DNA from: Rhizobium lusitanum
Lineage (GTDB): Bacteria; Pseudomonadota; Alphaproteobacteria; Rhizobiales; Rhizobiaceae
Reading direction: 5' to 3'
Length of the DNA: 64,000 nt
Assembly: GCF_014189535.1 (NCBI RefSeq)
Contig: NZ_CP050307.1
Coordinates: forward strand, 2,108,001 to 2,172,000
This document shows positions 1,774 to 44,865 of this stretch, in pieces. Numbering within the stretch: position 1 is the stretch's first letter; each line of letters begins with the position of its first letter. The notes below the pieces were generated by a model. It worked only from the letters and a program-made list of their open reading frames with translations, had not been told where the DNA came from and searched no databases. The position numbers and the translations under genes are program-made.

Positions 1774-3906
1774 GTGAATAAGCGTATTGGACTTCTGTCC
1801 GCGCTGATGGCGGGAGTGTGCACTCCCGCGATGGCGCAGACTGCGACCGAGTTGCAGCCCATCATCGTCAAGGCATCGGAGAATCCGACGGCCCTGCCGG
1901 AGGAATATCCGGGCGGGCAGATTGCGAAAGGCGGCCGCGTCGGAATGCTCGGCAACCGCGACGTGATGGACACACCGTTCAGTTCCACGAGCTATACGGC
2001 CACGATAATCGAGAACAAGGGAGCAAGCACCGTCGCGGAGGTGGTTGCGAGCGATCCGTCTGTCAGAAATACCCATGCCGCCGGTGGCATGCTTGACTCC
2101 TTCTATATCCGTGGTTTCCCGGTCAATGAAGGTAATTTCGGCGAAGTCGCCTTCGACGGCGTCTACGGCATTGCGCCGACCTATCGCGTCTTCACCGACT
2201 ATGCGGAGCGGGTGGAGGTGCTCAAGGGGCCAAGCGCCCTGCTTTACGGCATTTCGCCGAACAGCAGCGTCGGCGGCGCGATCAATATCGTGCCCAAGCG
2301 CGCCCCGGACGAGGATCTGACGCGGGTCACCACCGATTATACGTCCGACCTGCAGGGCGGCACGCATCTCGATTTTGCCCGCCGCTTCGGCGAAGAGCGG
2401 CAGTTCGGCATGCGCTTCAATGGCAGCCTGCAGGGCGGGAACACCCCGATCGACGATCAGACTCAGCAAGCCTATGTCGGCTCGCTTGCCCTTGACTACG
2501 AGGGGGAGAACTTTCGCGCCACCGTCGATGTCATCGGTCAGAAGCAGCATTTCGATGCTCCGCAGCGCCCCTTCTTTCCGGTGGCGGGGATCGCCATTCC
2601 TGACGCTCCTGACGGCCGGCTGAATATCCAGGAGCCCTGGGAATGGTCAAGGAGCCGGGATCTCTCCTGGCTGACCCGAGCCGAATATGACGTCAGCGAC
2701 ACGGTGACGATCTTCGGCGCGGTCGGCGGCGGCAGCTCACATGTCGCAAGACTTTTCGGCACGCCAACGCTTCTGAATTCGAACGGCGATGTCAGCGTCA
2801 CACCGCAGAACTTTGTGTTCGACGTCGACAGAATGACGGCCGAAACCGGCGCGCGCGCAAAGTTTGACACCGGCCCTGTCTCGCACGCCGTCACGCTGCA
2901 GGCCACCTACTTGCGGCAGACATTGGATCGTGGTTCCAATTCGGGCACTGCGCAGTTCACCAACATCTATGATCCGGTATTGCGTCCCGAACAGAACGTG
3001 CTGGCGCCGAGAAACGTTGGCAGAGTATCGGAAAGCGTCCTGTCCGGCATTGCCTTGTCGGATACGCTTTCGATCCTCGACGAACGCGTGCAGTTAACGG
3101 TTGGTGGCCGTTGGCAGTCGATCGATTCGAAGAATTTCAACGCAACGACAGGCGTGGTCACCTCGTCTTCCGACGAAACCGCGGTCACGCCGCTCATCGG
3201 CCTCGTGGTCAAGCCATGGGAAAACGTATCGCTCTATGCCAACTATATCGAAGGCCTCGGCGTTGGCGATACCGCGCCGGCAACCGCTGTAAACGCCGGC
3301 GAAACGCTGGCGCCCTATCGAACGAAGCAATACGAGATCGGCGCGAAGTTCGATCTCGGGCGGATTATTCTGAGCACCGCCGTTTTCCAGATCGAGAAGC
3401 CTTTCGGACAGCTTGAAAGCCAGAGCTCCGGCCTGGTCTTCGTGAACGGAGGGGAGCAACGCAATCGCGGCCTGGAGATCAATGTCGCTGGCGAAGTCAC
3501 CGCGGATCTGCGCTTGCTCGGCGGGGTTGCTTTCATCGACGGCGAGCTTACCAAGACCAATAATGCCGCCACGGTCGGAAACACGCCGATCGGCGTCCCC
3601 TCGATTCAGGCAAATCTCGGCGCCGAATGGGATACGCCCTTCGTGGAAGGCCTGACGCTTGCTGCAAACATGATCTACACAGACGAGCAATTCGCCGACA
3701 CTGCCAACAAACAGGAACTCCCTTCCTGGACGAGGTTTGATCTTGGTACGCGCTATGCGACCAAAATCCAGGATCGACCGGTGACCTTCCGCGCCTCCGT
3801 CGAGAACGTCTTCAACAAGGACTACTGGTCAGGCGTTGCAAGCTTCGGCACGATTTCGCAGGGCGCGCCCTTGACCGTCAAGGTGTCGATGACAACCGAT
3901 TTCTGA
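1774..3906 (+). CDS. TonB-dependent ferric-siderophore receptor
   Basis: A 710-residue outer-membrane receptor that would import a ferric siderophore using TonB energy. A signal peptide (about residues 1-22, ending AMA-Q) is followed by a plug domain with PFSSTSYTATII, DPSVRNTHAAGG, FYIRGFPV and VEVLKGPSALLYG, then a long beta-barrel ending in an aromatic residue (TDF). The start is a GTG at 1774, preceded by the purine-rich AAGGGGG at 1760-1766. It converges on the leftward siderophore operon ending at 4062, and both units carry an IRO, so it is the likely cognate receptor for that siderophore. A strong terminator follows. Ligand identity is inferred from position only. Confidence 0.92.
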   Translation: MNKRIGLLSALMAGVCTPAMAQTATELQPIIVKASENPTALPEEYPGGQIAKGGRVGMLGNRDVMDTPFSSTSYTATIIENKGASTVAEVVASDPSVRNTHAAGGMLDSFYIRGFPVNEGNFGEVAFDGVYGIAPTYRVFTDYAERVEVLKGPSALLYGISPNSSVGGAINIVPKRAPDEDLTRVTTDYTSDLQGGTHLDFARRFGEERQFGMRFNGSLQGGNTPIDDQTQQAYVGSLALDYEGENFRATVDVIGQKQHFDAPQRPFFPVAGIAIPDAPDGRLNIQEPWEWSRSRDLSWLTRAEYDVSDTVTIFGAVGGGSSHVARLFGTPTLLNSNGDVSVTPQNFVFDVDRMTAETGARAKFDTGPVSHAVTLQATYLRQTLDRGSNSGTAQFTNIYDPVLRPEQNVLAPRNVGRVSESVLSGIALSDTLSILDERVQLTVGGRWQSIDSKNFNATTGVVTSSSDETAVTPLIGLVVKPWENVSLYANYIEGLGVGDTAPATAVNAGETLAPYRTKQYEIGAKFDLGRIILSTAVFQIEKPFGQLESQSSGLVFVNGGEQRNRGLEINVAGEVTADLRLLGGVAFIDGELTKTNNAATVGNTPIGVPSIQANLGAEWDTPFVEGLTLAANMIYTDEQFADTANKQELPSWTRFDLGTRYATKIQDRPVTFRASVENVFNKDYWSGVASFGTISQGAPLTVKVSMTTDF

Positions 3907-4061: not shown

Positions 4062-5219
4062 TTACGGCGTTTTTGCCGTCAGGCTGACGCTATAACCCGG
4101 CTTGTAGGCAATCGGCAGAAAGCGCCGATGATATTCCGCGAAGGTCGCATCGGGATCAAGATCGGCGAAGAGGTCGGGGTGAAACCATTTCGCCAATTGC
4201 TGAATGGCGACGAATTCATAAGGACTATTGTAGAACTGGTGCCATATGCCGTGGAAATTGCGCGTCTTCTGCGCCTGGGTCCCGGTATAGGCGGGACGTG
4301 TCAGATACCATTCAAGCCTTTTCCGCAGGATCTCCGGATCTGCTCCCGGACCGAGCGGAATCCAGTGACCGCCTGGGGCATAGGCCTGCCAGTCCGAGCT
4401 GGTGACAACGACATGCTGCGGGTCTGAAACGATGACCTGCTCGGGATTGATCTGACCGAACGTCGTCGGCAGAAAGTCGCTGCCGATATTGTGACCACCA
4501 GCCACTTCGACATACCTGCCGAAGTTTTCCGCGCCGAAGGACAGGCAGCAGTCGTCCGAATAGCCGCCGATACGCTCGACGAACACGCGCGGGCGATCAG
4601 GTTTTGCCGTGTCGAGCACGTCGGTGACGCGGGCGACCGCTTGTCGGCGGAAGGCTATGATTTCCTCGGCAAGCTCCTTGCGATCCATGATCTCGCCCAG
4701 CAGGCGGATGGTCCGCTCGGTATTTTCGAGCGGATGGTGGCGGAAGTCGACATAAAGCACCGGAATGCCTAAGGATGCGAGCTTGTCTACATATTGGGCC
4801 TCCTCGTTGGCGCGCATCGCCTCGAGGTTGAGAAGAACGACATCCGGCTTGCGTATGATCGTCGATTCGATGTCGATCAGGCTACCTTCCTGTCCGGTAA
4901 AGGTCGGCAGTTTCGCAAGATCGGGAAAGGCCTCGAGATATTGGGCATAGGTTCCCGGATCGGCCTGGATCAGGTCGTTACGCCAGGCGACGATGCGCGA
5001 AAGCGGGTCCTTGGGCTCCAGTGAGGCGATCAGATAAAGTTGCCGGCCTTCGCCGAGCAGAATGCGCTGGACTGGCGCTTTGAGCGTCACCTTGCGGCCG
5101 GCGATGTCGGTAACGGTGATCGATGACTGTTCTTCCTGCGCCGTTGCCGGTGCATGCCAAAGGATGGGCAGCACGAACAATACCATTGCAGCCCGCCATA
5201 TCGAACTCCGTCTTTTCAC
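4062..5219 (-). CDS. Periplasmic ferric-siderophore binding protein (FepB/FhuD-type)
   Basis: A 385-residue class III periplasmic binding protein with an N-terminal signal peptide (positively charged start, hydrophobic core, APATA-Q cleavage around residue 27). The pattern [16 protein letters not shown] near residues 34-50 followed by VQRILLGEG is typical of iron-complex binding components. It should deliver the ferric siderophore to an inner-membrane ABC importer, which is not encoded here. The GTG start (5217-5219) overlaps the stop of the MFS gene as GTGA, making it the last gene of the operon. Its C-terminal half ([28 protein letters not shown]) resembles that of the binding protein at 32638-33765, so the two are paralogues serving the two siderophores. 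Confidence 0.88.
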
Positions 5220-6446
5220 GAATACGCTCCTTCTTCGAATGCCTTGCGTGTCTTAAGCCACAGACCCAGCGCAAGGAAAAGCGACAATGTGTAAAGGGCC
5301 GAAACCAATGGGAAGGCTGCCTTCAATCCCAGGGCCTGCGTTACGGCGACACCAGCAGCGATGCCGGCGATCGAGGCTACCTGCTGGCAGGTCTGGGCAA
5401 GACCGAGAATGGAGCCTTGCCGCTCACTTGGCGTCGCCGCCGAAATCAGGGCGAGCAACACAGGTGTGGTCCCACCGAGAAGCGCGCCCCAGATGAGATA
5501 GACGGCGGAGAACAGAACGATGGATGTCGTCAGGCCCGCTAAAGTGGAAACCAGGGCACAGCTTGCCGAAATGACGATCATCCAGCCGAGAACGACAGTC
5601 CTTGGGCTGCCTTTCAAGAGCCGCGCCCAAAGCGGTGCGCCGATCACGAATCCCAGGGCAAGCAGCCCGTAGCTGAGGCCCGCCATCCAGTGGCGAGCGC
5701 CAAAGACTTGCGTCATGTACAAGGCGAACGGCACCTGTAGCACCATGCGGCTGGCCAGCAGCAAACCGATTAGCCAAAGGAGCCCGGTGACCGAGGGATC
5801 CTTGGCGGGCATGGGTTTATGGGTTTGAGCGTGAGAGACACCGGGTGTTGCAGCCACGCTCGACGGCAATGGCAGCGTTGCCCAGGCAACGACCGCGCAT
5901 AAGGCGCAGACACCCCCAGCCGTAAGATTGATGTCGGAGAAGGAGGCGGCGTCAAGAATAAGGCCGCCGAAGAAGGCTCCGCCGAGCGATCCGACATTGG
6001 TCGCGACCTGCAACCAGGCGAACAATCCGGCGCGGTTACGGCCACCGGTGACCTCCACGCCGTAAGCCTGCGCCGGCGCGATATAGCCTGCGAAGGCGCC
6101 CTGCAGGAATCGCAGAGCGAGGATCGTCCAGACATCCTGAGCGAAGGCGACGAATAACTGCGTGACGGCCAGTCCGGCAAGCGCGCGCACCATCATCAGC
6201 CGATTTCCGTAACGATCGCCCATCCGGCCCCAAAAGGCGCTGGTCAGCGAGATACCGATCATCGGGCAAATGTAGACGCCGATACTTGCAAAGGAAAAGA
6301 CGCTCTCGGAAGAGCTGAGCGTCTCGATCTGGATCGGCCAGAAGGGGACCGCTCATCTCCATGGCTCCCATGGAGATGAACTGCAATGCGAAGAGAAGCA
6401 GGAAGACCGGTCCGAAACTGCGGATCGCAAGAGCGGCATGCTTCAT
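5216..6446 (-). pseudogene. MFS siderophore exporter, interrupted by a one-base frameshift
   Basis: A major facilitator superfamily transporter of about 410 residues, probably exporting the siderophore made by the operon. The N-terminus ([10 protein letters not shown]..., first membrane helix ending MGAMEMSG) is read in one frame and the rest ([14 protein letters not shown]... then [11 protein letters not shown], the loop 2-3 signature) in another. The shift falls in the G run at 6344-6347: removing one G restores a continuous protein. The start ATG (6444-6446) overlaps the stop of the synthetase gene as ATGA, and the stop overlaps the next gene as GTGA, so the operon architecture is intact. 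This may be a sequencing error rather than a dead gene; the downstream open frame is otherwise clean over 348 codons. Confidence 0.8.
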
Positions 6447-8320
6447 TTCGCGGCCACCAACGGATTATCGAGCTGATGCTCGACGCGGTAGTCGCGATAT
6501 CGTTCGAGATGCATCCGCAGGACCGAACGCGTCGGCCAAGGCTTTTCAAGAAAGGCTTGCCGCTCTTCTGTCCAGAACGCATCCGACAGCATGCGGGGCC
6601 TCAAGAGATCGAATGCGGCCTGCGTTTCCTCGCGCAGGATCTGCCACGGATCGTCAATGGTGCAATGCTCCGCGAGGCACAGGGCCATCTCGTGGAGATG
6701 GCAGACGAAGCAGGCATCGATCACGAAGGAGCGCACGAGGCTGATGTCATCATTGAACGTCGTCGGCAGGATGCCCTTGCGGCTGAAAGGCGCCAGCCGA
6801 TAACCGCGTTCTTCGAAAAGCGGCGCAAAGCTGCGTCCATCCCCGAAGTCGCGGATGAGCAGCTTTTGAGGATTGCCCGACGTGTCAAAGAGTATCGTGC
6901 TGTTTTGCTGGTGTGCCTCGAAGGCAATACCGTAGAGAAGATACATAGCAAGTGTCGGTCGAATAACCGTGCGGGCATAGGCTCTGAAAAAGGCGGATGC
7001 CCTCTCTTTCTCCACAACCGAATTCCGGGCAATTAGTTCACAGACGAGCGGCCGCTGAACCAGCGGACTTTCGGCGAGAAGGGCGGCCACGGTCACAGGG
7101 ATGAGGCCGTCCTTGCGGGCAAGTGCATTCACCTCGCGGTAGACGACCGACAGGAACCGGCCCGGATGCTCGTCGCCGGTTTCCGGATCATGCAGAATTG
7201 CGCCGAGCTCCTCCGTGAAAATCTCCAGCGAGCCCTTGAGCAGATCCTCATTCGCAAGGATGTCGCTGACCAAGGTGCTGAGGCGCGGCCCCATGTGGAT
7301 CGACTTCGCCTGCAGCGTTCTCTGCTCGCTGGTCATCCAGATGGCAACCGGTAGCTTGATGAACGGCTGCGGCTCCACAGTATCCGGCAGCATCGTCCGG
7401 AAGGACATGGCGGGGATCGTGATGATATCCGGACCGTCCACATCGAGGATACCCGAGGCGATCTGTGACGCGAACTCACGGCGAACGAAGTTTTCCAGAT
7501 GCCATCCATGGATCGGCATGGGAAGCCAGTCGCTCACCTTCCTTCCCCGGCGCAGAAGACCGTCGCTCCACTGTTCCCACACATCCGGAAACGCGTTTGC
7601 GAACCATTCGGAATAGTCGGCGACATGGGACATCGCCTCGACATAGGCCCAATCCCTGCGCAAGGCGGCAATGCGCAGCGGAACGCGTGCACCGAACTCC
7701 GGTGAAAGAGCACTGATTTCCTCCGCCGACAGTCCGGGCTTGGCTTTCCAGGTGGGGTAGAAGGGATGACCCTCCAGCGAACCCCATTGATCGAGCGCCA
7801 TCGCAACCAGATGCGTCGGCTGGCTTTTCTCGAGATGATCGATGAAGCCACCCGCGCCGCTGCCCGCTATCGCATGGCGAAGCTCGACGCTCCATTCCTC
7901 ACGATAACCGCGCGCCAGCACGTCATTTTTCATGCTGTCTTCCACGTCCCGCAGAAGAACCTCGAAGCCGTCAGGCGCCGACGAGACATCAAGGGCCGGC
8001 GCGATCTCCTTGAGAAGAGCCGCCGGATCGTCCAGTCTTCGGCGAACGCCGTTTTCCTCGATCACCTCGATGACGCCCCGATTGAGCAAGGTGTCCGCCG
8101 GCGCGTGCTGCAGGCGGGTAAAATGCAGCACCCGGCGCGACACCCAAAGCGGCAACCAGGCCTGGTCTCCGTTCTCAGCCCACAGCAGGGCCTTGGCATC
8201 GAGCAGTTTTTCGGCAAAGACGCAGCGAACCAGGCGCCGGATCGCGTTTTGCGAGGCGGCTTCCCAAAGTTGGCTTTCGACGGTTGGACTTTGTGTCTTT
8301 TCGGAAATGGTTTCGCTCAT
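6443..8320 (-). CDS. NIS siderophore synthetase (IucA/IucC family)
   Basis: A 625-residue NRPS-independent siderophore synthetase. This family adenylates a carboxylate (citrate, malate, succinate or alpha-ketoglutarate) and couples it to an amine or alcohol. Recognisable blocks are [15 protein letters not shown] near the first third (ATP/substrate loop), HGWHLENFV, the AMSFRTM and [14 protein letters not shown] region, and the C-terminal AFEAHQQN...RDFGDG...LPTTF segment with the fingers/palm-like domain. It is the only such enzyme in the operon, so the product should contain one enzyme-made amide, unlike staphyloferrin B (three synthetases). The ATG overlaps the stop of the opine dehydrogenase by one base (TGATG). 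Which carboxylate is used is not evident. Confidence 0.93.
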
Positions 8321-9459
8321 CAGGCAACTCCCGGCCAGTTGGTGGGAACATGGGTGTGCGAGGGCTGAGGCAATGCGCCATGATAGTCCCGCGCCCAGGA
8401 ATAGGTTTTCGTGATCGCCGGGATCGGTACGCGCAGGCGCGAAGCCACCTCCACGAGAAGGGCGAGCCCGAAGGCGATATCCTCGTGAAAGGCCCTGCTG
8501 TCGCGGTCGATCAGGTAACCGGCGCCGTGAGGATTGGGTATCAGCGGCGCCAGGATTCCGGCATAGGCTCGATTGGTGCGCAACAGGGAATACATGGTGC
8601 GATCATCCTCGATCTGATCGCCATAAGCCTCGATGAGCTCCTGGCGCAGCGGCTTGACCGAGCTCAGATCGATGCCGAAACGCTCCTGCGCCGCGTTGCG
8701 GATTGCCTGATTTTCGGCGTCACAGGCTTCCAGCAACTCTGCCCCTTCACGCGGGCAATCGCTCCACCAGCATAGCGGCGTCTCGAACGGTTTGTCGTGC
8801 CATGGGGCTTCGGGGCCGAGGAGCCCGTACAAGACGGCGGGATGCATGAGAGCGTTACCCGGCGTCAAGGTGATTTCGAGATAATTGTCGAGCATGGTCA
8901 CGGGCGCTTCGAAAAGCTGTCCGAGCATATGTTGCAGTCGGCTACGGTCGGCCGTGCTTTCGCGCGCATGCAGCGCGGCGAAAAGCTCGGCCTTTGCGCC
9001 GCCCATGCGAACCTGCCTGCCGGCAACCAGCTCGAATGCGGTATGGGGCACGTCTTTCATGCCCCAGATCACCACATTGTCCTGACCGGCAAACGCTTGC
9101 GCAGCCAGCCAGTCGAAGCCGCAGAAGCCGGGAATGGCACCGATATAGACCGGTTTGTCGCGCGGCAGATGCGGTGCGATCCTCGCCAGGAGATCGGAAC
9201 GGAGATGGGCTGGCTGCGTAACCACCACGATATCCGCGTCCTCAAGCGCCCGGTCGGGATCGGTTCCGACATAATCGGGCCGCCCGGAAAGCACCTGGCC
9301 CTCCGGAGTAAGCGCCTGCCATATGTCGTTCCCGGCCGCCCATTGCTCGGCCACCGAAGTGGAGCTGGTCAGCACGGATACCACCGTCTCCGGCCGCTGT
9401 TTGAAGAGGACGGCATTCAGATGGCCGGTGCGACCGGCCCCGCAGATCGTTACTTTCAT
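8320..9459 (-). CDS. Opine dehydrogenase family protein (octopine/nopaline dehydrogenase-like)
   Basis: A 379-residue NAD(P)-dependent dehydrogenase of the opine family, which reductively couples an alpha-keto acid to an amino group to give N-(carboxyalkyl)amino acids. The N-terminus carries a Rossmann motif (GAGRTGHLNAV), and the C-terminal part has the family's NALMHPAVLYG and RDSRAFHEDIAFGL segments with conserved histidines. I take the ATG at 9457-9459 because it forms an ATGA overlap with the preceding gene and starts right at the Rossmann strand (MKVTICGAG); an upstream in-frame ATG at 9540 would add 27 residues lying inside that gene. In staphyloferrin B operons this slot holds SbnB, an ornithine-cyclodeaminase homologue. 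The replacement suggests different chemistry, for example addition of a carboxyethyl group from pyruvate. Confidence 0.88.
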   Translation of the reverse strand: MKVTICGAGRTGHLNAVLFKQRPETVVSVLTSSTSVAEQWAAGNDIWQALTPEGQVLSGRPDYVGTDPDRALEDADIVVVTQPAHLRSDLLARIAPHLPRDKPVYIGAIPGFCGFDWLAAQAFAGQDNVVIWGMKDVPHTAFELVAGRQVRMGGAKAELFAALHARESTADRSRLQHMLGQLFEAPVTMLDNYLEITLTPGNALMHPAVLYGLLGPEAPWHDKPFETPLCWWSDCPREGAELLEACDAENQAIRNAAQERFGIDLSSVKPLRQELIEAYGDQIEDDRTMYSLLRTNRAYAGILAPLIPNPHGAGYLIDRDSRAFHEDIAFGLALLVEVASRLRVPIPAITKTYSWARDYHGALPQPSHTHVPTNWPGVA

Positions 9460-10466
9460 GCTGCCCGCGCCCTGTTCACCAACCAGCCGTCGAGTTGGTC
9501 GGCGATCGAAGGATCGAGAAGACCGCGCTTTTCCATCCACTCGTCGTCGAAGAAGGAGCTAAGATATTTCTCGCCTCCATCGGCTACGGTCGTTACCACG
9601 TTGCCGCTCAGTTTGCCGGCCACGATGAATTCCAGCGCCTTGTAGATGGCGCCGCCGGTCGAGCCGCCAACCAGGAGCCCCTTGCGTCGAGCAATATAGC
9701 GGGCCGTCTCGAAGGCCTGGGTGTCAGTGACCTGAACACCTTCGTCGATGCAGGAATAGTCCAGCACCTTGCCAACCTCGTCGCCGGCGGGTGTGCCCGT
9801 ACCGGACTGGTAATAGGGATAGCCCGGTTTTCCGAAGACGATCGATCCGGCGGGCTCGACCGCGATGGTCTTGATGCGAGCATTATGCCGCTTGAGGCCT
9901 TGGGAAATACCGGTCATCGAGCCGCCGGTGCCCACGCAACCGACGAATGCGTCGATGCCTTCAGGCAGCTGGGTCAGGAGCTCCTCGACGAAACCGGCAT
10001 AACCTTCTGGATTTGCCGGATTGTCGGACTGGTTCATGAACAGCGCGCCGGGAAGCTGGGCGCCGAGCTGCGAGGCGAGACGCTGGCGTTCGACCACGGC
10101 GACCTCATCCTCGCGGTAGGTGCCTTCGACATAACGAATCTCCGCCCCGAGCGCCCGCATCGTGCGGATCTTGTCCGGAGCGGCATGATGATCCACCACC
10201 GCGATGAAACGCATGTCGAATTCAAGGGCGGCAAGCGCAAGGCCGATACCGGTATTGCCGGAGGAGGATTCGACGATGGTACCGCCCGGCTTCAGGCGAC
10301 CATCGTTCAGCGCGGCAACCACCATGCTGCGTGCCATCCGGTCCTTCATCGAGCCGCCCGGATTGTTCTTCTCGATCTTGAGGATCAGAGTCGCGTTCCG
10401 ACCGGGCAGATCTATCGACATCAACGGCGTCTGGCCGATAAACTGGGTTATCGTCGTGTAAGTCAT
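9456..10466 (-). CDS. SbnA-like PLP-dependent cysteine-synthase-family enzyme
   Basis: A 336-residue fold-type II PLP enzyme of the cysteine synthase/cystathionine beta-synthase family. The PLP lysine sits in NNPGGSMKDR (about residue 44), the substrate loop is SSSGNTGIGLA, and the phosphate-binding loop is GTGGSMTGISQ. In Staphylococcus, SbnA uses O-phosphoserine and glutamate to form a C-N bond; the presence of an SbnI/SerK-like serine kinase in the same operon supports O-phosphoserine as the donor here. The amine acceptor is unknown; lysine would fit a rhizobactin-like product. The gene overlaps both neighbours as ATGA. A plain biosynthetic cysteine synthase is less likely given the operon. 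Confidence 0.88.
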   Translation of the reverse strand: MTYTTITQFIGQTPLMSIDLPGRNATLILKIEKNNPGGSMKDRMARSMVVAALNDGRLKPGGTIVESSSGNTGIGLALAALEFDMRFIAVVDHHAAPDKIRTMRALGAEIRYVEGTYREDEVAVVERQRLASQLGAQLPGALFMNQSDNPANPEGYAGFVEELLTQLPEGIDAFVGCVGTGGSMTGISQGLKRHNARIKTIAVEPAGSIVFGKPGYPYYQSGTGTPAGDEVGKVLDYSCIDEGVQVTDTQAFETARYIARRKGLLVGGSTGGAIYKALEFIVAGKLSGNVVTTVADGGEKYLSSFFDDEWMEKRGLLDPSIADQLDGWLVNRARAA

Positions 10467-11839
10467 AGGTACATCTCCAAATCGTCGGTGGTGAGAAAAG
10501 GCATGCCGTCCGCACCGTGATGCACACGGAAGCGCTTCGGCATCGGATGGCGATGAAATTCGTTTTCGAGCAGATCCATCTGGTATCCGGCTGTGTTGGC
10601 ATAGACCAGAAGATCACCGGCGCGGGGCATGGCGGGGAAATCCAGCCAGCGGTTGGTCAGTACGTCCTCGTCAAGGCAGCTATGGCCTGCGAGATAGGCC
10701 TTGCATGGCTTTTCGGCAGGCGTGTACGCGGCAGCGGGAATGATGATCGGATCGATCAGGAACTCCGATGCGAACCAGGTCTCGCAGGCACTGAAGCTGC
10801 TGCCTTCCACGAAGACGACGGCCGTGTCCGGCCCCAGCGTCTTGACGCGGGTGATCCTGAAGACGGAGACGGCGGCCTGGTCGGCCAAGGCGCGGCCGGG
10901 TTCCAGCGCCAGCGTGAGGTTCTCGTCCCTGAAATAGTCGGCGATGCTCCGGCCGTCGTCGAGTGCCGCGGCAAGCAGGCAGCCCAGCCAGTCGGCGGCC
11001 GAAACCTCGCCGCCATACGGATAGAAGGAAGACGGCTGCTTATGGTTGCGATAGTCCGCCGCGCTCTGGCGCTCGATGTGAGCTTGATAGCCACGCGCAT
11101 CGACATAGCGTATCGGCAGTCCGCCGCCGATATCGATCATTCTGGGAGTGAGGCCAATCGCGCGCGCCTCGCTGATCAACCAGGAGGCTTCGCGGATTGC
11201 GGCGGCCCGCGTTTCCCAGCCATAGCCGGAGAGATGGAAATGCAGACCGTCGAAGCGAAACCGCTTATCGGCGGCAATGACTGACAGGCAAAGCAGCACC
11301 TCATCGGCGTCCATGCCGAAGCGGCTACCGGCCTGACTGCCGGGGCGCAGGCGCAGCAGCACTGGCTGCGGCTCTCCATCCTCCGGCAGGCGGGCAGAGA
11401 GGTCATCCAGTTCTTCCGGCGAATCGACCGAGATCAGCGCCTTGCAGGCAATCAGCGCATCGTGAAATGCCCGCGTTTTCGCAGGGCCGGTTGCGACAAT
11501 GCGGTCTCCCGCAGCACCCAGCGCCAGCGTGTCCCGCAGTTCATAGAGGCTGGAGACGTCGACGCCGATACCGGCATTGAGCGCAGCATGCATCAAACCC
11601 GGCGACTTGTTGACCTTCGCGCCATAATAGAGCGCGTGATTTACTCCATGTTGCGCGAGCACGTCGGTCAGCGCACGCGCATTTTCGCCCAATGCCTCGG
11701 GGCTTACCAAATGAAATGGGGAGCCATGTTTCTCCACCCACTCGATCAGCAACGTGCCATTGTGGCTGATAAGATCAGCTGTTCGGGGGCGCAGAATGGG
11801 AGAGAGACCAGCATCAGATCCTTGCCGATATAGCGTCAT
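10463..11839 (-). CDS. PLP-dependent decarboxylase (fold type III; SbnH/diaminopimelate decarboxylase-like)
   Basis: A 458-residue alanine-racemase-fold decarboxylase of the DAP/ornithine decarboxylase family. YYGAKVNKS near residue 70 holds the PLP lysine, HFHLSGYG the His stacking on PLP, IDIGGGLP the glycine-rich phosphate loop, and ALEPGRAL a second phosphate contact. In staphyloferrin B synthesis the homologue SbnH decarboxylates a diaminopropionate-containing intermediate to an ethylenediamine unit, and an equivalent step is likely here. I set the start at the ATG 11837-11839, which forms an ATGA overlap with the upstream gene; a longer frame from 11890 would lie inside that gene. Confidence 0.88.
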   Translation of the reverse strand: MTLYRQGSDAGLSPILRPRTADLISHNGTLLIEWVEKHGSPFHLVSPEALGENARALTDVLAQHGVNHALYYGAKVNKSPGLMHAALNAGIGVDVSSLYELRDTLALGAAGDRIVATGPAKTRAFHDALIACKALISVDSPEELDDLSARLPEDGEPQPVLLRLRPGSQAGSRFGMDADEVLLCLSVIAADKRFRFDGLHFHLSGYGWETRAAAIREASWLISEARAIGLTPRMIDIGGGLPIRYVDARGYQAHIERQSAADYRNHKQPSSFYPYGGEVSAADWLGCLLAAALDDGRSIADYFRDENLTLALEPGRALADQAAVSVFRITRVKTLGPDTAVVFVEGSSFSACETWFASEFLIDPIIIPAAAYTPAEKPCKAYLAGHSCLDEDVLTNRWLDFPAMPRAGDLLVYANTAGYQMDLLENEFHRHPMPKRFRVHHGADGMPFLTTDDLEMYL

Positions 11840-12273
11840 AGCGATGCTCCTGCACCGGCCGTCGCAAATGAGGCGTGCGTTGTAGGCCAATCCGGCCGCA
11901 GGCGCTCAAGCGGCACCATGCACGACGGCAGAGGCGCATCGACAATATGCCGTGTCGTTTTGAACGGAAATTTGCCGCCGCTTCTGGCCATGGCAAAAAT
12001 CTTTTCGGGCGTGATAGTTTCGCCGCTCCGCCAGCCTTCCACCCGGACAAGATCGTAGCTCAGCATAAAGACTGGGACAGCGGTCAGCTGCAGTCGCCGT
12101 GCAACGCATAGGCGATGGTGACCGTCCATAACGAGAAGCTCGTCCTTTTCCACCATGATCGGCACCGTCCAGTAGCCGGTTTGGAGGATCTGAGCTTCAA
12201 GGATTTCGACGCGATCTGGATCAACCTCCTCGGTCGGGATCAACTGATCGGGGCATAAGAAATGGTATTTCAT
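11836..12273 (-). CDS. ParB/Srx-fold free serine kinase-like protein (SbnI/SerK type)
   Basis: A 145-residue protein with the ParB/sulfiredoxin fold signature VMDGHHRLCVARRL around residues 48-62 and the segment PFKTTRHI around residues 103-110, which matches the PPKTTRH motif of archaeal SerK and of SbnI. Those proteins phosphorylate free serine to O-phosphoserine. Here it would supply the SbnA-like enzyme two genes downstream. It is shorter than SbnI (about 250 residues) and lacks its C-terminal part, so SbnI's haem-sensing or DNA-binding role need not apply. First gene of the operon: ATG at 12271-12273 with AAGGCGG just upstream, 46 bp after an IRO. Function is inferred from motif and context. 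Confidence 0.8.
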   Translation of the reverse strand: MKYHFLCPDQLIPTEEVDPDRVEILEAQILQTGYWTVPIMVEKDELLVMDGHHRLCVARRLQLTAVPVFMLSYDLVRVEGWRSGETITPEKIFAMARSGGKFPFKTTRHIVDAPLPSCMVPLERLRPDWPTTHASFATAGAGASL

Positions 12274-12318: not shown

Positions 12319-12333
12319 TGAGAAATTTTGTCA
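12319..12333 (-). promoter_or_regulatory. IRO and -35 box of the NIS siderophore operon
   Basis: On the coding (minus) strand the sequence TGACAAAATTTCTCA fits TGA-N9-TCA, the RirA operator. It overlaps a perfect TTGACA -35 hexamer (12329-12334) and ends 46 bp before the first ATG. Iron-dependent repression by RirA is the expected control. Confidence 0.72.
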
Positions 12334-12545: not shown

Positions 12546-12581
12546 ATAAACATGACTATTAATATCATGTTTATAGTCATG
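12546..12581. promoter_or_regulatory. Nested inverted repeats containing a second IRO-like site
   Basis: Two perfect inverted repeats interlock here: a 10-bp pair (ATAAACATGA at 12546-12555 with 12565-12574) and a 9-bp pair (CATGACTAT at 12551-12559 with 12573-12581). The centre (12553-12567, TGACTATTAATATCA) again fits TGA-N9-TCA and closely resembles the site before the receptor at 1684. It lies about 275 bp upstream of the siderophore operon, and no intact gene begins to its right. It could be a distal operator or promoter of the operon, or the leftover control region of a lost gene. Confidence 0.55.
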
Positions 12582-23213: not shown

Positions 23214-24122
23214 TCAGACGATGGTCTCGCCGCCGCCGACAAAGCGCAACGCTCGACAAAGTGACGCCGTCACGATCGTGGCATGATCCTCGTCCTCACC
23301 AAGCTCAAACCGCACGTTCACCTTCTTTCCGAAGGCAGCACCAACCTCACTCGAAATCTCGCGCGCATTGTCAATCATACGTCGGACCTCCCTAATCTCG
23401 TGATATTGGTCGCTGAAATTCTCCTTCGCCTGCCAAGGCGCGAACTCCTGCTCCCAGAGCCCGACGGCTGTATAGAGGCGGATTGGACGTGTGATTTGGC
23501 GCGCCGACGCCAGCGCCCGCGACAACCCAGCCCTGTCCCACCAAACCGAGGGACTGAAACTGATATAGCCATGGAACATGTCCGGGTGCTGCGCTAGCAG
23601 ATCGAGTACGAAATACCCGGCGAGAGAATGACCGAGAAGGGTGCAACAATCCGGATCGGCATCGAGCCACGATGCGATATAGGACATCAGTTGGCCGCTG
23701 AGGAAGCGGATATAGGCTGCCTGGCCGCCACAACTATCCCTGGCCTTATCCGGGAATGCTCCCGCATCCGCCGGACCGCGGGTGAAATCCGCATGGCGGC
23801 GGTCAACATTGTATCCGCCGGTATTGGGGTAACCGATGCCGACCACGATCGAAGGAGCGATACCGGTCGCCTTGGGACGTCGCGAGACACGTCGCACGGT
23901 CTCCGCAACGGTTATAAAATCCGAATTGGCGTCGAGAACATAAATGACCGGAAATCCGGAAGCAGGCGGCGCGGTCTCCGGAACATAGACAAAGATCTCA
24001 TAATCCAAACCCGTTTCCGATGAACGCAGCTCAAATCTCTGACAGCCCGGCATTGCCAGCGATTGCGGAACCGACATCCCCACAACGTCCTGCCGCGTTT
24101 TTCCCATAATTTTGTTAGGCAT
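23214..24122 (-). CDS. Siderophore-esterase-like alpha/beta hydrolase (IroE/Fes type)
   Basis: A 302-residue esterase of the PF00756-like alpha/beta hydrolase family. FPVIYVLDANSDFITVAETVRR is the usual early strand block, LLGHSLAGYFVLDLLAQHPDMFHGYISFSPSVWW holds the nucleophile serine, and the C-terminal GEDEDHATIV carries the catalytic histidine. Relatives include IroE, Fes and BesA, which hydrolyse the ester backbone of catecholate siderophores. As the last gene of the catecholate operon it probably releases iron from, or linearises, the DHB-serine siderophore. I use ATG 24120-24122, overlapping the end of the entA-like gene by 8 bp; an in-frame ATG at 24227 would lie well inside that gene. 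There is no clear signal peptide, so action in the cytoplasm is likely. Confidence 0.82.
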   Translation of the reverse strand: MPNKIMGKTRQDVVGMSVPQSLAMPGCQRFELRSSETGLDYEIFVYVPETAPPASGFPVIYVLDANSDFITVAETVRRVSRRPKATGIAPSIVVGIGYPNTGGYNVDRRHADFTRGPADAGAFPDKARDSCGGQAAYIRFLSGQLMSYIASWLDADPDCCTLLGHSLAGYFVLDLLAQHPDMFHGYISFSPSVWWDRAGLSRALASARQITRPIRLYTAVGLWEQEFAPWQAKENFSDQYHEIREVRRMIDNAREISSEVGAAFGKKVNVRFELGEDEDHATIVTASLCRALRFVGGGETIV

Positions 24123-24876
24123 GAAGCGTCGCGCCTCCATCGACGTAAATATCAGCCATCGTAATATGCCCCGCCTTCTCCGATAGCAGGAAAAGGACCG
24201 AATTGGCGATATCGTCCGGGGTTGCAAGTTTGCGGAGCGGAATGCCGGTCTTGTAATTCTCCAGGGAGCCGGCGATCACCCGCTCGCCGCCGTTATCGTC
24301 AGTCCACATACCCGTCTGCATCGATGTCAGTGTCGAGCCAGGCGCAACGATGTTGCAGCGGATACCATGCTCTGCCAACTCCAGACCGAGGCAACGGGTG
24401 AACATGGTCGAGGCCGCCTTCGATGCGGCGTATGCCGCCATGTTCCGGCGCGGCACGCCGACTGCGTTGGAACTTACCGTGACGATGCTGCCTCGACGGC
24501 GCGGTACCATGTGCCGGGCGAGCGCGCGCGAAACGTGGAAGACGCCGGCCGTGTTGACGGCAAAGACGCGCGCCCATTCCACGTCGCTTGTTTCCAGAAC
24601 CGGCGTCGTGGAGAGCACACCGGCGACATTAATCCCGTAGTCGATGCCATCGCATTGCGCCGCCATGTCGTCCATCAGCCGGTCCACATCTGCACTTTTC
24701 GTCACATCGAGCGGGCGGGCATAGAGATTGTCACAGGCAAGCTCCGTCAGTCCGTCCACCGAAACATCGGTGGCGACGACGTTTGCGCCTTCCTGCAGAA
24801 GCGCCTTGACCACCGCGAAGCCGATTCCACCGGCTGCACCCGTCAGGAACGCGGTCTTGCCTTTGAACTCGCTCAC
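24115..24876 (-). CDS. entA: 2,3-dihydro-2,3-dihydroxybenzoate dehydrogenase (EntA/DhbA)
   Basis: A 253-residue short-chain dehydrogenase. TGAAGGIG is the NAD-binding motif, NVAGVLS the structural loop, YAASKAA holds the catalytic Tyr-x3-Lys with Ser in VTVSSNAVGVPR, and the specific segments PRRNMAAYAASKAA and GSTLTSMQTGMW match EntA. It performs the NAD-dependent last step of 2,3-dihydroxybenzoate formation. The GTG start (24874-24876) overlaps the NRPS stop as GTGA. The operon with entC-, entE- and entB-like genes makes the assignment firm. Confidence 0.93.
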   Translation of the reverse strand: MSEFKGKTAFLTGAAGGIGFAVVKALLQEGANVVATDVSVDGLTELACDNLYARPLDVTKSADVDRLMDDMAAQCDGIDYGINVAGVLSTTPVLETSDVEWARVFAVNTAGVFHVSRALARHMVPRRRGSIVTVSSNAVGVPRRNMAAYAASKAASTMFTRCLGLELAEHGIRCNIVAPGSTLTSMQTGMWTDDNGGERVIAGSLENYKTGIPLRKLATPDDIANSVLFLLSEKAGHITMADIYVDGGATLHA

Positions 24877-27800
24877 AATTTGCCTCCCTCTTTCTGCTGC
24901 ATTTCGTGGTCCAGAAGTGCCGCCTTCAAGGCCGGCGCCACATGCGCCACTGCCTCGGCGCCCGTCATGTGAGCATGAGCAAAGGGGACATTTCGAACGT
25001 CAACCGAAGCGACATAAGGGTTCCAGCTGTCTGGCTGCAGGCCCGTTCCGTCATCTGCATGATCTTTGGCTGCCCGGAAGTGCAGGACCGGACCGTCGTA
25101 GCGACGATGGCGATGACCGCGTACGAAGCGGTTGTTGAGCGCGACCACGCGGGCCATCCCATCAAGTGCGGCCAATGGCAGCTTGCCGAGGGGGCTGCCG
25201 CTTTCGGCGAGAAACGCCGTAACAGCCTCTCGTGTCAGCGGCAGCTCCGGCAGCGCATCGGGATCGTGTCCGCCAATCGCCAGCAGTGCCTTGAGTTCGG
25301 CGCCCGGCCCTGGATCCGGCTCGTCGCGCCAGCAATCGCATGGATAGGCATCAAGCATGGCGACGACACCGACCTGTCGCCCTAGCTCCCCCAGATGCAC
25401 GGCAATAGCTTGCGCGAGAATGCCGCCGACCGACCAGCCGACGAGATGGATTGGCTCCGGTCCTGCGATGAAAGCAATCCGCTCGGCATAGTCGAGCGCC
25501 ATCTTGTCCAGGCTATGCGGCGCCTCGGCATCCGGGTCGAGCGCCAGAGCCTGGACGCCCCAGGCAGGGCGATCGGCGCCGAGCGCCCGCGCCAGTCCGT
25601 TGTAGCACCAGGAAAGCCCACCGGCCGGATGCAGCATGAAGACCGGCGATTTCCCCCGATCGGCGGAGTTAAGCTTGACGATTGGCTGCAGTCCCGCGCT
25701 TTCGGTCGCCGGCCCCTGATCCAGGTATTGAGCAAGCCTGCCGATGGTGGAATGCTCGAACAGGACACCGATGCCCGGCTCGTGGCCGGTGATTTCGCGC
25801 AGATGCAACATCAACTCCACCGCCAGAAGCGAGTGCCCGCCGAGATCGAAAAAGTCGTCATCGGCGAGGAAGGGGCCTTGTGCCCGCAAAACCCGCTCGA
25901 ACAGCATCGCCGCCAGCTTTTCATTGTCCGTTTCGGGCGCCCGTCCGCGTCCGCCTGCAAAGACCGGCGCGGGCAGAAGTTTGCGGTCGAGTTTGCCGTT
26001 GGGGTTCACCGGCAAGACATCAAGCAGAATGATTGCAGAGGGCAGCATATAGTCCGGCACCAGGCGCCCGGCATGGGCGACAATATTCGCCTCGGCCCCT
26101 TCCGACCTCTTACCCTCCTCAAGGGTCGCATAGGCAACGATGCGCTTGTCGCCAGCCGGATCCTCGCGCAGGACGACCACCGCCTGCGTCACTGCCGGAT
26201 AAGAGAGAATTGCCGTCTCGATCTCGCCGAGTTCGATGCGCAGGCCACGCAGTTTGATCTGATGGTCGGACCGCCCGAGATAGAGGATCGCGCCATCAGG
26301 ACGAATGCGAGCGAGGTCGCCGGTGCTATACATGCGCTCCCCTGGATGGAAGGGATCGGCGATGAAGCGCTCCGCCGTCAGCGCCTTCTGGCCGAGATAT
26401 TCGCGGGCCAGCTGAACGCCGGCGAGATAAAGATGCCCCTCGACGCCAACCGGCACCGGGCGCATGTGATCGTCGAGCACGTAGAGCCGCGTGTTCCAGA
26501 CCGGAAAGCCGATCGGGATCGGGCGGGAAAGATCGCCGGCGCCGGCTGGCCAATAGCTGACATCGACTGCAGCTTCTGTCGGGCCGTAGAGATTGTGTAA
26601 TTCAGCCGTCATCCGCTCGTGAAAGCGGTCGCGCAGATCGGCGGTCAGTTCCTCGCCACTGCAGAAGACCCGCTTCATCGAAAGGCCGAGTGAGCCGGGC
26701 TCGGCCAGAAAGGCCGATAGCATGGAGGGTACGAAATGCGCCGTCGTGATCCTCTCGTCGCGGATCATGCTCGCCATCGCCCTCGGGTCTTTGTGCGCAT
26801 CGGGCGGCGCAACCACGAGGCGTCCGCCGGACAGAAAGGCGAGGAAAAACTCCCAGACCGAGACGTCGAAGGTCATCGGGGTTTTCTGGAGAATGACGTC
26901 ATCAGGGCTGAAGCCGTAGTGTTGCCGCATCCATTCGAGGCGGTTGACGATCGCGGCGTGCTCAACCACCACGCCTTTGGGCTCACCGGTCGAGCCGGAT
27001 GTGTAGATCACATAGGCGGCGCTATCGCCGGCGACCTCTGCGGGGGTTGTGCCGCGCGGCTTGTCCGGCCAGGCAAGGGGCGGGAAGGCCGGCACTGTAC
27101 CCAGCGCTTCCGCGTCGTCGGCACCAAGAACGACAACCGGACGCGAAGAGCTGATAATTCTCTCCAGCCGTTCTTTCGGATGGTTGAGATCGAGCGGCAT
27201 ATAGGCAGCGCCTGCCCGCAGGGTCGCGATCAGCGCCACGACGAGTTCGATCGAGCGTGGCAATGTGACGGCAATGATCGCATCCCGCCTCGCCCCACGT
27301 TCCACAAGCGCTTCCGCCAATGCCGCCGTGCGGCGATCAAGTTCGGCATAGGTCAGGGATTGCCCGTCAAAGCGCAGCGCCTCCTTGCTCGCGAAAGAGA
27401 CGAAACTGTCCTCCAGCAATTGCGATAGCGTCTTGTCCGTCACGGCATGCGCGGTGTCGTTCAGGCTTTCGATCAGCCAGCGGCGCTCGTCGTCCGTGAC
27501 CGTGGCAACCTCGCGCAGCGGGCAGCCGGCAAGGGCCGCCTCGACGGCGGATCGAACGAAGGCTGCGAGCCGCTTGGCATGGGTCTCGGCCTCGCCGGTT
27601 TCATAGAGGGCGGGATTGGTATCAACCTCAAGACTGAGGCCCCGGGCAGTGGGGTCACCGCGGAAACTGAACGTGATGTCGTCCACCGGCCCGGTTCCCA
27701 GAATCTCAAGACGCGTTTTCAGCCCCGCCAGCCTGGGCGGCGCATCGAACGGCAAAACGTTGATAAGCGGGCCGTAGAGCCGCCGCTGTCCGCCGAGAAG

Positions 27801-28829
27801 ACCAAGGTCGCGGCGCATCTGTTCGCCACGATAACGTCCGTGGCGACGATCGCGGGCGATGCGCCCAGAGGCCGTGACCAGCCAGTCGCCGAGCGCGGCG
27901 TCCTCGTCAACGACAAGCCGCAAGGGCAATATATTCATCAACATCGTCGGAACGCGCGCCGCTGACGAACCGAAACGGCCCATGAAGGGCACACCGACAA
28001 CAACCTCATCGCGCCGAACGTGCCGGGCGACATAAGCACCGGCGAGCGCCGTCAGGATATCGGGCCAGGATAGCTTCAACGTTCGGGCAAGTTTCAGGAG
28101 GCTATCGCAGATATCCTGCGCAAGCTGGCATTCGACGTGGTTGTAAGATGTCGCGGTGCGGGCCAGCCCCAGCTTCATGCCGGTGACATCAGGCATATCC
28201 CGCAGGGCCTCGCGCCAATAGGCTGCGTCTTTGACTGCCCGCTCCGACCCCCGATATTCGCCTTCTACACTGACGGCAAGGTCGATGTCGGCAAGTGGCC
28301 CGCCGCGCGGTTCACCGGCAACGGAAGCATTATAGATCTCTGCGATGCGATGCGTCACAAGCCCGGTCGCAAAGCCGTCGGTTACGACGTGATGCATGCG
28401 CTGATACCAGACGAAATGATCGCCATCGAGCCGGTAAAGCACCTGCCGTGCGAGCGGTCCCTTGGCCATGTCGATTGGGGTGCGCATGTCGGCCAGCATG
28501 GCAGCGAAGGCGACAGCTTTGGGATCGGCGTGATCCGACAGATCTTCCAGCTGGAGCAGCGGGCGATTGTCTTCCTCCACCCGCTGCATGTCCTTGCCGA
28601 CAATGCGGACGGATAGGCTATCCGCCTCCATCGCGACGCGACGCACCGCGTCCTCGAACGCCGGGACATCAAGCCCCCCATCGATTTCGACATAGTGTCC
28701 GGTGTTGAAGACGGGATTGGCGGGATCGATGCCCTGCGCGAACCAGATACCGGCCTGCGCCTGTGTCAGGGGGAGGGAGCCGGCCGGCCGGCTAACCGCG
28801 GCCTTCGCGACATGTGCCGTCATGGTCAT
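24873..28829 (-). CDS. entF: EntF-like nonribosomal peptide synthetase (C-A-PCP-TE), serine-activating
   Basis: An NRPS of about 1318 residues with one module. The condensation domain (about 15-430) has the HHxxxDG motif as HHVVTDG near residue 146. The adenylation domain (about 450-950) has YTSGSTGEPKG and a specificity pocket reading D-V-W-H-F-S-L-V-D from FDVSVWEF, TAHFVP, CSGEE, YGPTEAAVDVS, the same as EntF for serine. The carrier domain has GGHSLLAVEL (phosphopantetheine Ser1000) and the thioesterase has GWSVGG (Ser1133). It should join 2,3-dihydroxybenzoyl to serine and cyclise or release the product. I start it at ATG 28829, which forms an ATGA overlap with the carrier gene; the frame is open to 28871. 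No MbtH partner or phosphopantetheinyl transferase is encoded nearby. Confidence 0.93.
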   Translation of the reverse strand: MTMTAHVAKAAVSRPAGSLPLTQAQAGIWFAQGIDPANPVFNTGHYVEIDGGLDVPAFEDAVRRVAMEADSLSVRIVGKDMQRVEEDNRPLLQLEDLSDHADPKAVAFAAMLADMRTPIDMAKGPLARQVLYRLDGDHFVWYQRMHHVVTDGFATGLVTHRIAEIYNASVAGEPRGGPLADIDLAVSVEGEYRGSERAVKDAAYWREALRDMPDVTGMKLGLARTATSYNHVECQLAQDICDSLLKLARTLKLSWPDILTALAGAYVARHVRRDEVVVGVPFMGRFGSSAARVPTMLMNILPLRLVVDEDAALGDWLVTASGRIARDRRHGRYRGEQMRRDLGLLGGQRRLYGPLINVLPFDAPPRLAGLKTRLEILGTGPVDDITFSFRGDPTARGLSLEVDTNPALYETGEAETHAKRLAAFVRSAVEAALAGCPLREVATVTDDERRWLIESLNDTAHAVTDKTLSQLLEDSFVSFASKEALRFDGQSLTYAELDRRTAALAEALVERGARRDAIIAVTLPRSIELVVALIATLRAGAAYMPLDLNHPKERLERIISSSRPVVVLGADDAEALGTVPAFPPLAWPDKPRGTTPAEVAGDSAAYVIYTSGSTGEPKGVVVEHAAIVNRLEWMRQHYGFSPDDVILQKTPMTFDVSVWEFFLAFLSGGRLVVAPPDAHKDPRAMASMIRDERITTAHFVPSMLSAFLAEPGSLGLSMKRVFCSGEELTADLRDRFHERMTAELHNLYGPTEAAVDVSYWPAGAGDLSRPIPIGFPVWNTRLYVLDDHMRPVPVGVEGHLYLAGVQLAREYLGQKALTAERFIADPFHPGERMYSTGDLARIRPDGAILYLGRSDHQIKLRGLRIELGEIETAILSYPAVTQAVVVLREDPAGDKRIVAYATLEEGKRSEGAEANIVAHAGRLVPDYMLPSAIILLDVLPVNPNGKLDRKLLPAPVFAGGRGRAPETDNEKLAAMLFERVLRAQGPFLADDDFFDLGGHSLLAVELMLHLREITGHEPGIGVLFEHSTIGRLAQYLDQGPATESAGLQPIVKLNSADRGKSPVFMLHPAGGLSWCYNGLARALGADRPAWGVQALALDPDAEAPHSLDKMALDYAERIAFIAGPEPIHLVGWSVGGILAQAIAVHLGELGRQVGVVAMLDAYPCDCWRDEPDPGPGAELKALLAIGGHDPDALPELPLTREAVTAFLAESGSPLGKLPLAALDGMARVVALNNRFVRGHRHRRYDGPVLHFRAAKDHADDGTGLQPDSWNPYVASVDVRNVPFAHAHMTGAEAVAHVAPALKAALLDHEMQQKEGGKL

Positions 28830-29077
28830 GCCTCCGCCATCGCATCCATGCGCTGTTTCGCGATCAGCCACCAGCCAGCAAGCGTTGGGCGCGTGGCCAA
28901 TTGGGAGAAGTCGAGATGGACTCCACGCTCCCGCCAGAGCAGCACGAGGTTCATGGCCCGCATCGAATCCAATCCGAGATCCATCAGATTGTCATCGTCA
29001 CCGATCTCTTCAGGATCGATGTGAATGATTGCTGCGATATCGTCGCGCATGAGGTCGAGGCTGAGAGGTTCCGTCAT
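28826..29077 (-). CDS. Free-standing aryl carrier protein
   Basis: An 83-residue acyl/aryl carrier protein. DDDNLMDLGLDSMRAMNLV contains the phosphopantetheine-accepting serine (about residue 38). In E. coli this domain is the C-terminal part of EntB; here it is a separate gene following an isochorismatase that lacks it, joined to both neighbours by ATGA overlaps. It should carry 2,3-dihydroxybenzoate loaded by the DHB-AMP ligase and hand it to the condensation domain of the NRPS. Confidence 0.92.
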   Translation of the reverse strand: MTEPLSLDLMRDDIAAIIHIDPEEIGDDDNLMDLGLDSMRAMNLVLLWRERGVHLDFSQLATRPTLAGWWLIAKQRMDAMAEA

Positions 29078-29723: not shown

Positions 29724-29724
29724 T

Positions 29725-32570: not shown

Positions 32571-32637
32571 GTTGCTCTCCAGTCTTTGTCGGGGGTTTGG
32601 AATGTCTATGCTGCTGTCGCCGCAGCCTTAACGACCG

Positions 32638-33765: not shown

Positions 33766-33814
33766 CGCGATTATTCCAGTTTTGGGACTTGATGGCCGCC
33801 TGCGAGCGGGGCAG

Positions 33815-34471: not shown

Positions 34472-34499
34472 ATCTGATCCTTCTGTCCCGCGTGGGGCC

Positions 34500-44829: not shown

Positions 44830-44865
44830 CCCATAATTCAACCGCAAAGTAAGAAGGTGACGGGC

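Follow-up and report, generated by a model that had tools for sequence, protein, structure and literature searches.

A seven-gene operon of Rhizobium lusitanum predicted to make rhizobactin or a closely related aminopolycarboxylate siderophore

Which molecule is made by a siderophore operon that combines a single synthetase of the IucA/IucC type with an opine dehydrogenase? This question is raised by seven same-strand genes that run from 12273 to 4062 on the minus strand of a 64-kb stretch of Rhizobium lusitanum DNA, the whole of which is called the window here. In 5' to 3' order, they encode a kinase-like protein (P0007), a decarboxylase (P0006), an SbnA-like enzyme (P0005), a dehydrogenase (P0004), an IucA/IucC synthetase of the nonribosomal peptide synthetase-independent siderophore (NIS) type (P0003), an exporter (P0002), and a binding protein (P0001). 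From sequence comparisons, we estimate a probability of roughly four in five that rhizobactin, or an aminopolycarboxylate siderophore very close to it, is the product that this operon makes and exports; a neighbouring receptor and the binding protein would recover its iron complex. Our confidence is lower for the exact acid used by the window strain than for rhizobactin or a close analogue.

The link to rhizobactin comes from Pseudomonas sp. FEN. This strain releases rhizobactin, measured at 378.1866 (C15H27O8N3), and even more rhizobactin B, its citramalate variant (392.2020, C16H29O8N3); no pyoverdine was detected from it, and the authors of that study credited the synthesis to two homologues of the rhbAB genes from the rhizobactin 1021 cluster (PMC7676072; papers are cited here by PMC number, from excerpts of their text). 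We scanned representative genomes with an alignment of the dehydrogenase alone, which gave 92 confirmed loci; 80 were examined, including the FEN locus L075, and 12 were left out. The FEN draft genome contained a single IucA/IucC gene and a single octopine-dehydrogenase gene, and each lay within the L075 cluster, leaving this proven producer with the gene set and no second candidate for the key enzymes. The route that we propose (serine + lysine + pyruvate + malate − CO2) computes to C15H27N3O8 with an [M+H]+ of 378.187, the formula measured for FEN rhizobactin; the calculated [M+H]+ values of the three intermediates before it are 234.145, 190.155, and 262.176. Genomic evidence thus supports, by exclusion, a tie between the FEN cluster and rhizobactin, and together with the formula match it strengthens the rhizobactin-type reading that a preliminary description of this DNA had put forward from the enzyme set.

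A second link comes from Caballeronia. A 2023 title by Blanco Nouche et al. (doi 10.1128/aem.00453-23), cited in PMC12943173, names Caballeronia mineralivorans PML1(12) as a producer of the NIS siderophore rhizobactin. Our Caballeronia locus L068 held the same cluster, with a single IucA/IucC gene in its genome, and the PML1(12) cluster, known to us from this title, is likely homologous to that of the window. To judge from the title, a link between genes and rhizobactin has probably been published for C. mineralivorans already; it therefore supports the rhizobactin reading and lowers its novelty. Rhizobactin itself was described in 1984–85, first from Sinorhizobium meliloti, strain DM4 (PMC7676072 and references in it).

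All seven genes named by the preliminary description were found within 4062–12273 on the minus strand. Six of its enzyme names agreed with Pfam matches; P0007, the one protein without a Pfam match, kept its name through a weak SerK match, an alignment to SerK, and its predicted fold. The overall span stood, while two gene limits moved to positions seen in annotated relatives. The decarboxylase, listed as an open reading frame from 11890, probably starts at an ATG at 11839 that overlaps the preceding stop, and the dehydrogenase probably starts at 9459. With start sites corrected, successive operon genes overlapped by 4, 4, 4, 1, 4, and 4 bases. The operon genes and the neighbouring receptor gene are as follows.

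11836–12273, minus strand: compact free-serine-kinase (SerK/SbnI)-like protein of 145 amino acids (weak match to NCBIfam SerK, alignment, predicted fold)
10463–11839, minus strand: fold-III pyridoxal phosphate (PLP) decarboxylase of the Y4yA family (Orn_Arg_deC_N, PF02784)
9456–10466, minus strand: SbnA/cysteine-synthase-like PLP enzyme, Y4xP homologue (PALP, PF00291)
8320–9459, minus strand: octopine-type opine dehydrogenase, Y4xO homologue (PF02317)
6443–8320, minus strand: IucA/IucC NIS synthetase, Y4xN homologue (PF04183 and PF06276)
5216–6446 (open frame 5216–6262), minus strand: major facilitator superfamily (MFS) exporter, Y4xM homologue (MFS_1)
4062–5219, minus strand: periplasmic siderophore-binding protein, FhuP-like (PF01497)
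1774–3906, plus strand: TonB-dependent siderophore receptor, convergent with the operon (TIGR01783)

In the proposed route, serine would be phosphorylated by the compact SerK-like protein, and the SbnA-like enzyme would turn the O-phosphoserine into an aminoacrylate and join this to lysine at its alpha-amine. The serine-derived end of this product would next lose its carboxyl group to the fold-III decarboxylase, leaving an aminoethyl arm to which the octopine-type dehydrogenase would add pyruvate reductively. Decarboxylation is placed before the dehydrogenase step, since PLP decarboxylases act only where the carboxyl group has a free primary amine beside it. Finally, the IucA/IucC synthetase would attach malate to the epsilon-amine of lysine through an amide bond, and the product would be exported, with the receptor and binding protein bringing the iron complex back. 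We infer each catalytic step, as well as the use of lysine, pyruvate, and malate by the window operon, from genes, their conservation, their uniqueness in FEN, and promoter sites, all of which were read in the sequences.

The kinase-like protein P0007 has 145 amino acids, compared with ~242 in SerK. In a phmmer alignment, its residues 2–81 and 88–112 matched the two ends of SerK and the SerK middle was skipped, with E15 paired to E30, the glutamate that is replaced in the SerK E30Q entry. The catalytic-type residues were present as E15, D50–R54 (DGHHR), and K105–H109 (KTTRH), compared with E30, DG[HN]HR, and KTTRH in the SerK pattern. An alignment of 34 sequences, that of the window among them, showed no variation at D50, G51, H53, R54, K105, T107, R108, and H109 and almost none at E15 and T106. 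The AlphaFold model (predicted local distance difference test score 89.4, predicted template modelling score 0.81) matched SerK entries with template modelling (TM) scores by query length of 0.78–0.80 (5x0b, E 2.6e-9) and SbnI with 0.77–0.78, while ParB and sulfiredoxin reached only ~0.4. As modelled, P0007 has the fold and catalytic residues of SerK/SbnI. It scored 33 bits with the NCBIfam SerK model (NF053625), which has a cut-off of 380, and for this reason we call it SerK-like. Staphyloferrin B offers a precedent, as SbnI supplies O-phosphoserine to SbnA in that pathway, and one deposited SbnI entry bears the name O-phospho-L-serine synthase; by analogy, P0007 is predicted to make O-phospho-L-serine. 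In rhizobia, the kinase gene precedes the decarboxylase gene; Pectobacterium and Proteus have it after the operon, and Pseudomonas has it on the opposite strand. Its retention despite these reshuffled positions argues for a role in the system.

The nearest solved structures of the decarboxylase were diaminopimelate and ornithine decarboxylases, and its K92 was near-invariant (at least 97%) across 83 sequences. The SbnA-like enzyme kept 123 of its 336 positions unchanged across 83 sequences. It stayed under the SbnA equivalog cut-off (TIGR03945, 228.5 bits vs 349.95) and scored slightly higher with a cystathionine beta-synthase model (238 bits), and its predicted function is assigned by context only. 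The dehydrogenase was of the octopine type (PF02317, 101 bits, cut-off 30) and was the sole PF02317 gene found in its own genome. Its best solved relative was octopine dehydrogenase 3c7a, whose H212 and R324, which we take to be functional positions, were conserved. The synthetase matched PF04183 (154 bits) and a C-terminal FhuF-like domain (111 bits), both above cut-off; its best NCBIfam model was FslA, at 271.5 bits and under the cut-off of 1000. As the preliminary description had it, there is a single IucA/IucC synthetase: this was the sole PF04183 gene found in its own genome.

Transport genes completed the set. The exporter kept its identity (MFS_1, 151 bits; FslB-like at 110 bits, below cut-off), but its 5' end sits in another frame: its first 34 residues matched the relative L015 of Rhizobium sp. 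BK602, in which the exporter is one unbroken open frame of 409 amino acids, and the window then runs on in a different frame. The binding protein belonged to PF01497 (PRK14048, 241 bits, below the cut-off of 374), and the receptor scored above cut-off with TIGR01783 (358 bits). The receptor gene stands tail to tail with the operon, as in the S. meliloti locus L003, and adjoins it in many other loci; on this arrangement, we count it as part of the operon's system. No permease of the FecCD type turned up among the scanned open reading frames of the window. The genome as a whole had 13 FecCD matches, 12 of them over cut-off, and a FhuB-like tandem FecCD pair in one frame of 668 amino acids (C4:1737752–1739614) is a possible shared importer.

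The operon is not a chance assembly, because its core gene set recurred in all of the loci fetched by one gene: genes for the decarboxylase, the SbnA-like enzyme, and the NIS synthetase were matched in 80/80. The exporter was matched in 79/80, the receptor in 75/80, the binding protein in 69/80, and the kinase in 75/80 (not in L064, L069, L084, L087, and L092). These loci spanned rhizobia, Bradyrhizobium, Pseudomonas, Pectobacterium, Thalassospira, Burkholderiales, and Proteus mirabilis, and the SbnA-like enzyme was the most conserved protein over them (66–93% identity). Within the genus Rhizobium, a dehydrogenase match turned up in 10 of 100 genomes; eight of the matches were full-length and strong, and one of these eight had an internal stop. 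Among plasmid records, 45 had a dehydrogenase match, 38 of them at 60–80% identity. In S. meliloti, the cluster was carried by accessory plasmids of some strains and was not found on the two megaplasmids of strain 1021, to which these searches were directed. A distant dehydrogenase with 39% identity and one internal stop (L014, G073:C4:57055–58140) and a similar match of 38.5% in plasmid record H62 were also observed; L014 probably belongs to a different opine system.

Three sites of the pattern TGA-N9-TCA, which we take to be the IRO box of RirA, lie near the operon and the receptor gene.

12319–12333, no strand assigned: IRO-box-like site, 60 bp upstream of the operon (pattern match)
12553–12567, no strand assigned: second IRO-box-like site, 294 bp upstream of the operon (position not conserved)
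1684–1698, no strand assigned: IRO-box-like site upstream of the receptor gene (pattern match)

The count of operon promoters took in 34 loci of rhizobial type, namely L002–L004 and 31 of the 80 examined (the other 49 were left uncounted); the count of receptor promoters took in the 21 receptors that shared 64% identity or more with that of the window (P0008). An IRO-box-like site was present within 300 bp in 22/34 operon promoters and at 53–67 bp in 21/34, with five further sites elsewhere in the same stretches. All 21 receptor promoters had a site within 300 bp, 19 of them at 87–109 bp. In comparison, 10.2% of random 300-bp stretches of these loci, which are mostly coding, held such a site. 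Over the whole window, the sites were not above chance (16 vs 13.6 expected), so only position and conservation carry weight, and we give no P value because related sequences are not independent. The conserved position of the site matches that of a RirA/IRO-box iron regulon and suggests that the operon is under iron control. A site at 53–67 bp was absent from 13 operon promoters, those of seven Bradyrhizobium loci (one of which, L027, had a single site, at 139 bp), two Leisingera loci, L015, L002, L032, and L033.

The last three loci sit in a type III secretion locus, and the flanks of L032 and L033 are 98.8% identical to those of S. fredii NGR234. This strain has two copies of the cluster. 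The copy on pNGR234b (L109, NC_012586.1 348764–363891) has the receptor, the binding protein, and both IRO-box-like sites, whereas the copy on pNGR234a (L002), which unlike the window operon lies inside the type III locus, has none of these. Apigenin induces the y4yB–y4xM genes of pNGR234a ~53 to 83-fold (excerpt of PMC10970691), and their role has been called enigmatic (excerpt of PMC3973906). The kinase of the type III-embedded copy (L002, 5372–5800) has DDYHR in place of DGHHR/DGNHR, and because of this altered motif, the copy may rely on the second copy on pNGR234b. NGR234 thus offers a natural pair of copies for iron and plant-signal (flavonoid) control.

The acid may differ between versions of the cluster. 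An HpcH/HpaI-family (citrate lyase beta) gene that most resembles RipC, a citramalyl-CoA lyase, lies beside the cluster in 30/80 loci: all 21 of Pseudomonas (FEN included), all seven of Pectobacterium, one of Proteus, and one of Bosea. This RipC/CitE-like gene scored 155–169 bits in the five cases examined, below the RipC cut-off of 375. No match to it was found within the fetched flanks of the other 50 loci, and the rhizobial loci were without it. The gene in FEN fits rhizobactin B, because rhizobactin B contains citramalate; in Pseudomonas, Pectobacterium, Proteus, and one Bosea, it probably feeds citramalate (or malate) into the pathway, leading to rhizobactin B. For the window, the gene content predicts rhizobactin and not rhizobactin B.

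Several observations weigh against the rhizobactin assignment. None of the cut-offs of the SerK, SbnA, and FslA models was reached by the operon proteins, and the best named family of the NIS synthetase is the rhizoferrin synthetase FslA. The FEN proteins are only 43–71% identical to those of the window, the NIS synthetase is among the less conserved (51%), and the window operon may use another acid than FEN's. The FEN genome is a draft, and we have seen no knockout or assay for either cluster. The dehydrogenase occurred in only 2 of 58 genomes of the L068 genus, once as two contig-end pieces, and pSymB of S. meliloti 1021 holds one gene of the octopine dehydrogenase family, too unlike P0004 for the plasmid search. 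In the literature excerpts, y4yA, y4yB, and y4xP mutants had no or mild symbiotic effects, with no siderophore result quoted. Y4xP has been reported as a cysteine synthase (excerpt of PMC3973906); this label may keep alive an outcome that the preliminary description had named as contrary to its reading, namely an SbnA-like enzyme using only sulfide. Finally, a second, catecholate siderophore locus in the window (23214–36824) complicates phenotypes.

The low identity of the NIS synthetases and the FslA match bear above all on a product of the same architecture with another building block, such as citrate for malate, another amino acid for lysine, or 2-oxoglutarate for pyruvate. The substrates are assigned from sequence, and rhizobactin B shows that the acid varies. 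However, conservation is highest, with many invariant positions, in the SbnA-like enzyme, on which the choice of amino acid must depend, and the RipC/CitE-like gene of other versions points to malate or citramalate. We therefore regard a changed building block as unlikely. It is less likely still that the locus has decayed in this genome, with a broken exporter frame and a product no longer released. The exporter frame break was the sole uncompensated in-gene non-triplet difference between the window and L015 over 10.7 kb (85.2% identity), which also counts against the rhizobactin assignment. However, the remaining operon genes are open and conserved, and a similar apparent frame change at the isochorismatase start of the second siderophore locus would also fit scattered assembly errors. 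A role in sulfur metabolism or symbiosis, with the SbnA-like enzyme a true cysteine synthase and the cluster an accessory of type III secretion, would accommodate the Y4xP report, the position between nopX and nopL, the flavonoid-dependent expression, and a USDA191 y4xP mutant that nodulates one soybean better (excerpts of PMC3973906), as well as the apigenin induction, but it is very improbable given that, among the loci tested, only L032 and L033 besides L002 share the NGR234 type III flanks at the DNA level, that most other rhizobial copies come with a receptor, a binding protein, and IRO-box-like sites, and that NGR234 itself has such a stand-alone second copy on pNGR234b.

Two other regions of the window were observed. 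The catecholate-type locus contains EntA/DhbA, an EntF-like synthetase (condensation, adenylation, peptidyl carrier protein, and thioesterase domains), separate isochorismatase and carrier-protein open reading frames (the isochorismatase start apparently in another frame), EntE, and an isochorismate synthase, together with a FhuP-like binding protein, an O-methyltransferase, a receptor with an IRO-box-like site 76 bp before it, an esterase, and an AraC regulator. At 43093–55729, there are three luciferase-like monooxygenase genes, an acyl-CoA-dehydrogenase-like gene, and parts of an ATP-binding cassette (ABC) transporter, possibly for organosulfur compounds.

The preliminary description had proposed a comparison with related clusters, and this found the same gene set in the y4yB–y4xM and proteobactin loci: the window combines the kinase-like protein, decarboxylase, SbnA-like enzyme, octopine dehydrogenase, and single NIS synthetase that together mark this family. 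The NGR234 genes y4yB–y4yA–y4xPONM and the accessory-plasmid copies of S. meliloti and S. medicae share the window's gene order at 59–88% protein identity. FEN L075 has the same five biosynthetic genes with exporter, binding protein, and receptor, and differs in having its kinase and RipC/CitE-like genes on the opposite strand. The proteobactin (pbt) cluster of P. mirabilis (L094) resembles the window operon in its receptor, decarboxylase, PLP enzyme, octopine-type dehydrogenase, MFS protein, binding protein, and hypothetical protein, and its NIS enzyme was grouped with Y4xN; it differs in gene order, an ABC permease and ATPase, and the citrate-lyase-beta-like pbtI. In the excerpts of PMC11026637, the source of this description, proteobactin is described just as a predicted hydroxycarboxylate siderophore.

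The rhizobactin molecule and the y4yB–y4xM/proteobactin gene set are already known. As a joint reading, which is possible and which we offer tentatively, the family would represent the rhizobactin pathway in alpha-, beta-, and gammaproteobacteria alike, by the five-step route of SerK-like, SbnA-like, decarboxylase, opine dehydrogenase, and NIS enzymes; the RipC/CitE-like gene would shift the product to rhizobactin B, proteobactin would be a rhizobactin, and the type III copy of S. fredii would have moved from iron to plant-flavonoid control. If this is true, the type III-embedded copy would make a siderophore on a host signal. The reading assigns a likely product to proteobactin and to the enigmatic y4yB–y4xM genes of soybean symbionts, probably corrects which genes are credited in FEN, and names a candidate gene for the difference between rhizobactin and rhizobactin B, and it makes an enzyme-by-enzyme rhizobactin route and the spread of its genes testable. 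Among the matches listed in a text search of the open-access literature, none joined rhizobactin with y4yB–y4xM, proteobactin, or opine dehydrogenase. In excerpts, PMC8822346 and PMC12815270 concerned other clusters, and PMC9694258, PMC10393863, PMC7204214, and PMC8706082 mentioned rhizobactin or rhizobactin 1021 and not the window's cluster.

Rhizobactin 1021 (rhbABCDEF), a hydroxamate, shares with the window only its name and NIS chemistry. We rejected it as a model: the window's own genome, FEN, and 7 + 3 further genomes have a single IucA/IucC gene, whereas pSymA of S. meliloti 1021 has two and no octopine dehydrogenase, and the Pfam matches of the operon included no monooxygenase that would serve as a hydroxamate enzyme. 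Staphylopine-type systems combine a nicotianamine-synthase-like CntL with a staphylopine-type dehydrogenase, and neither was among the operon's Pfam matches. Staphyloferrin B (sbnA–I) shares with the window the logic of an SbnI-type kinase, SbnA, a fold-III decarboxylase, and NIS synthesis; it differs in having SbnB where the window has an octopine-type dehydrogenase, and three NIS enzymes where the window has one.

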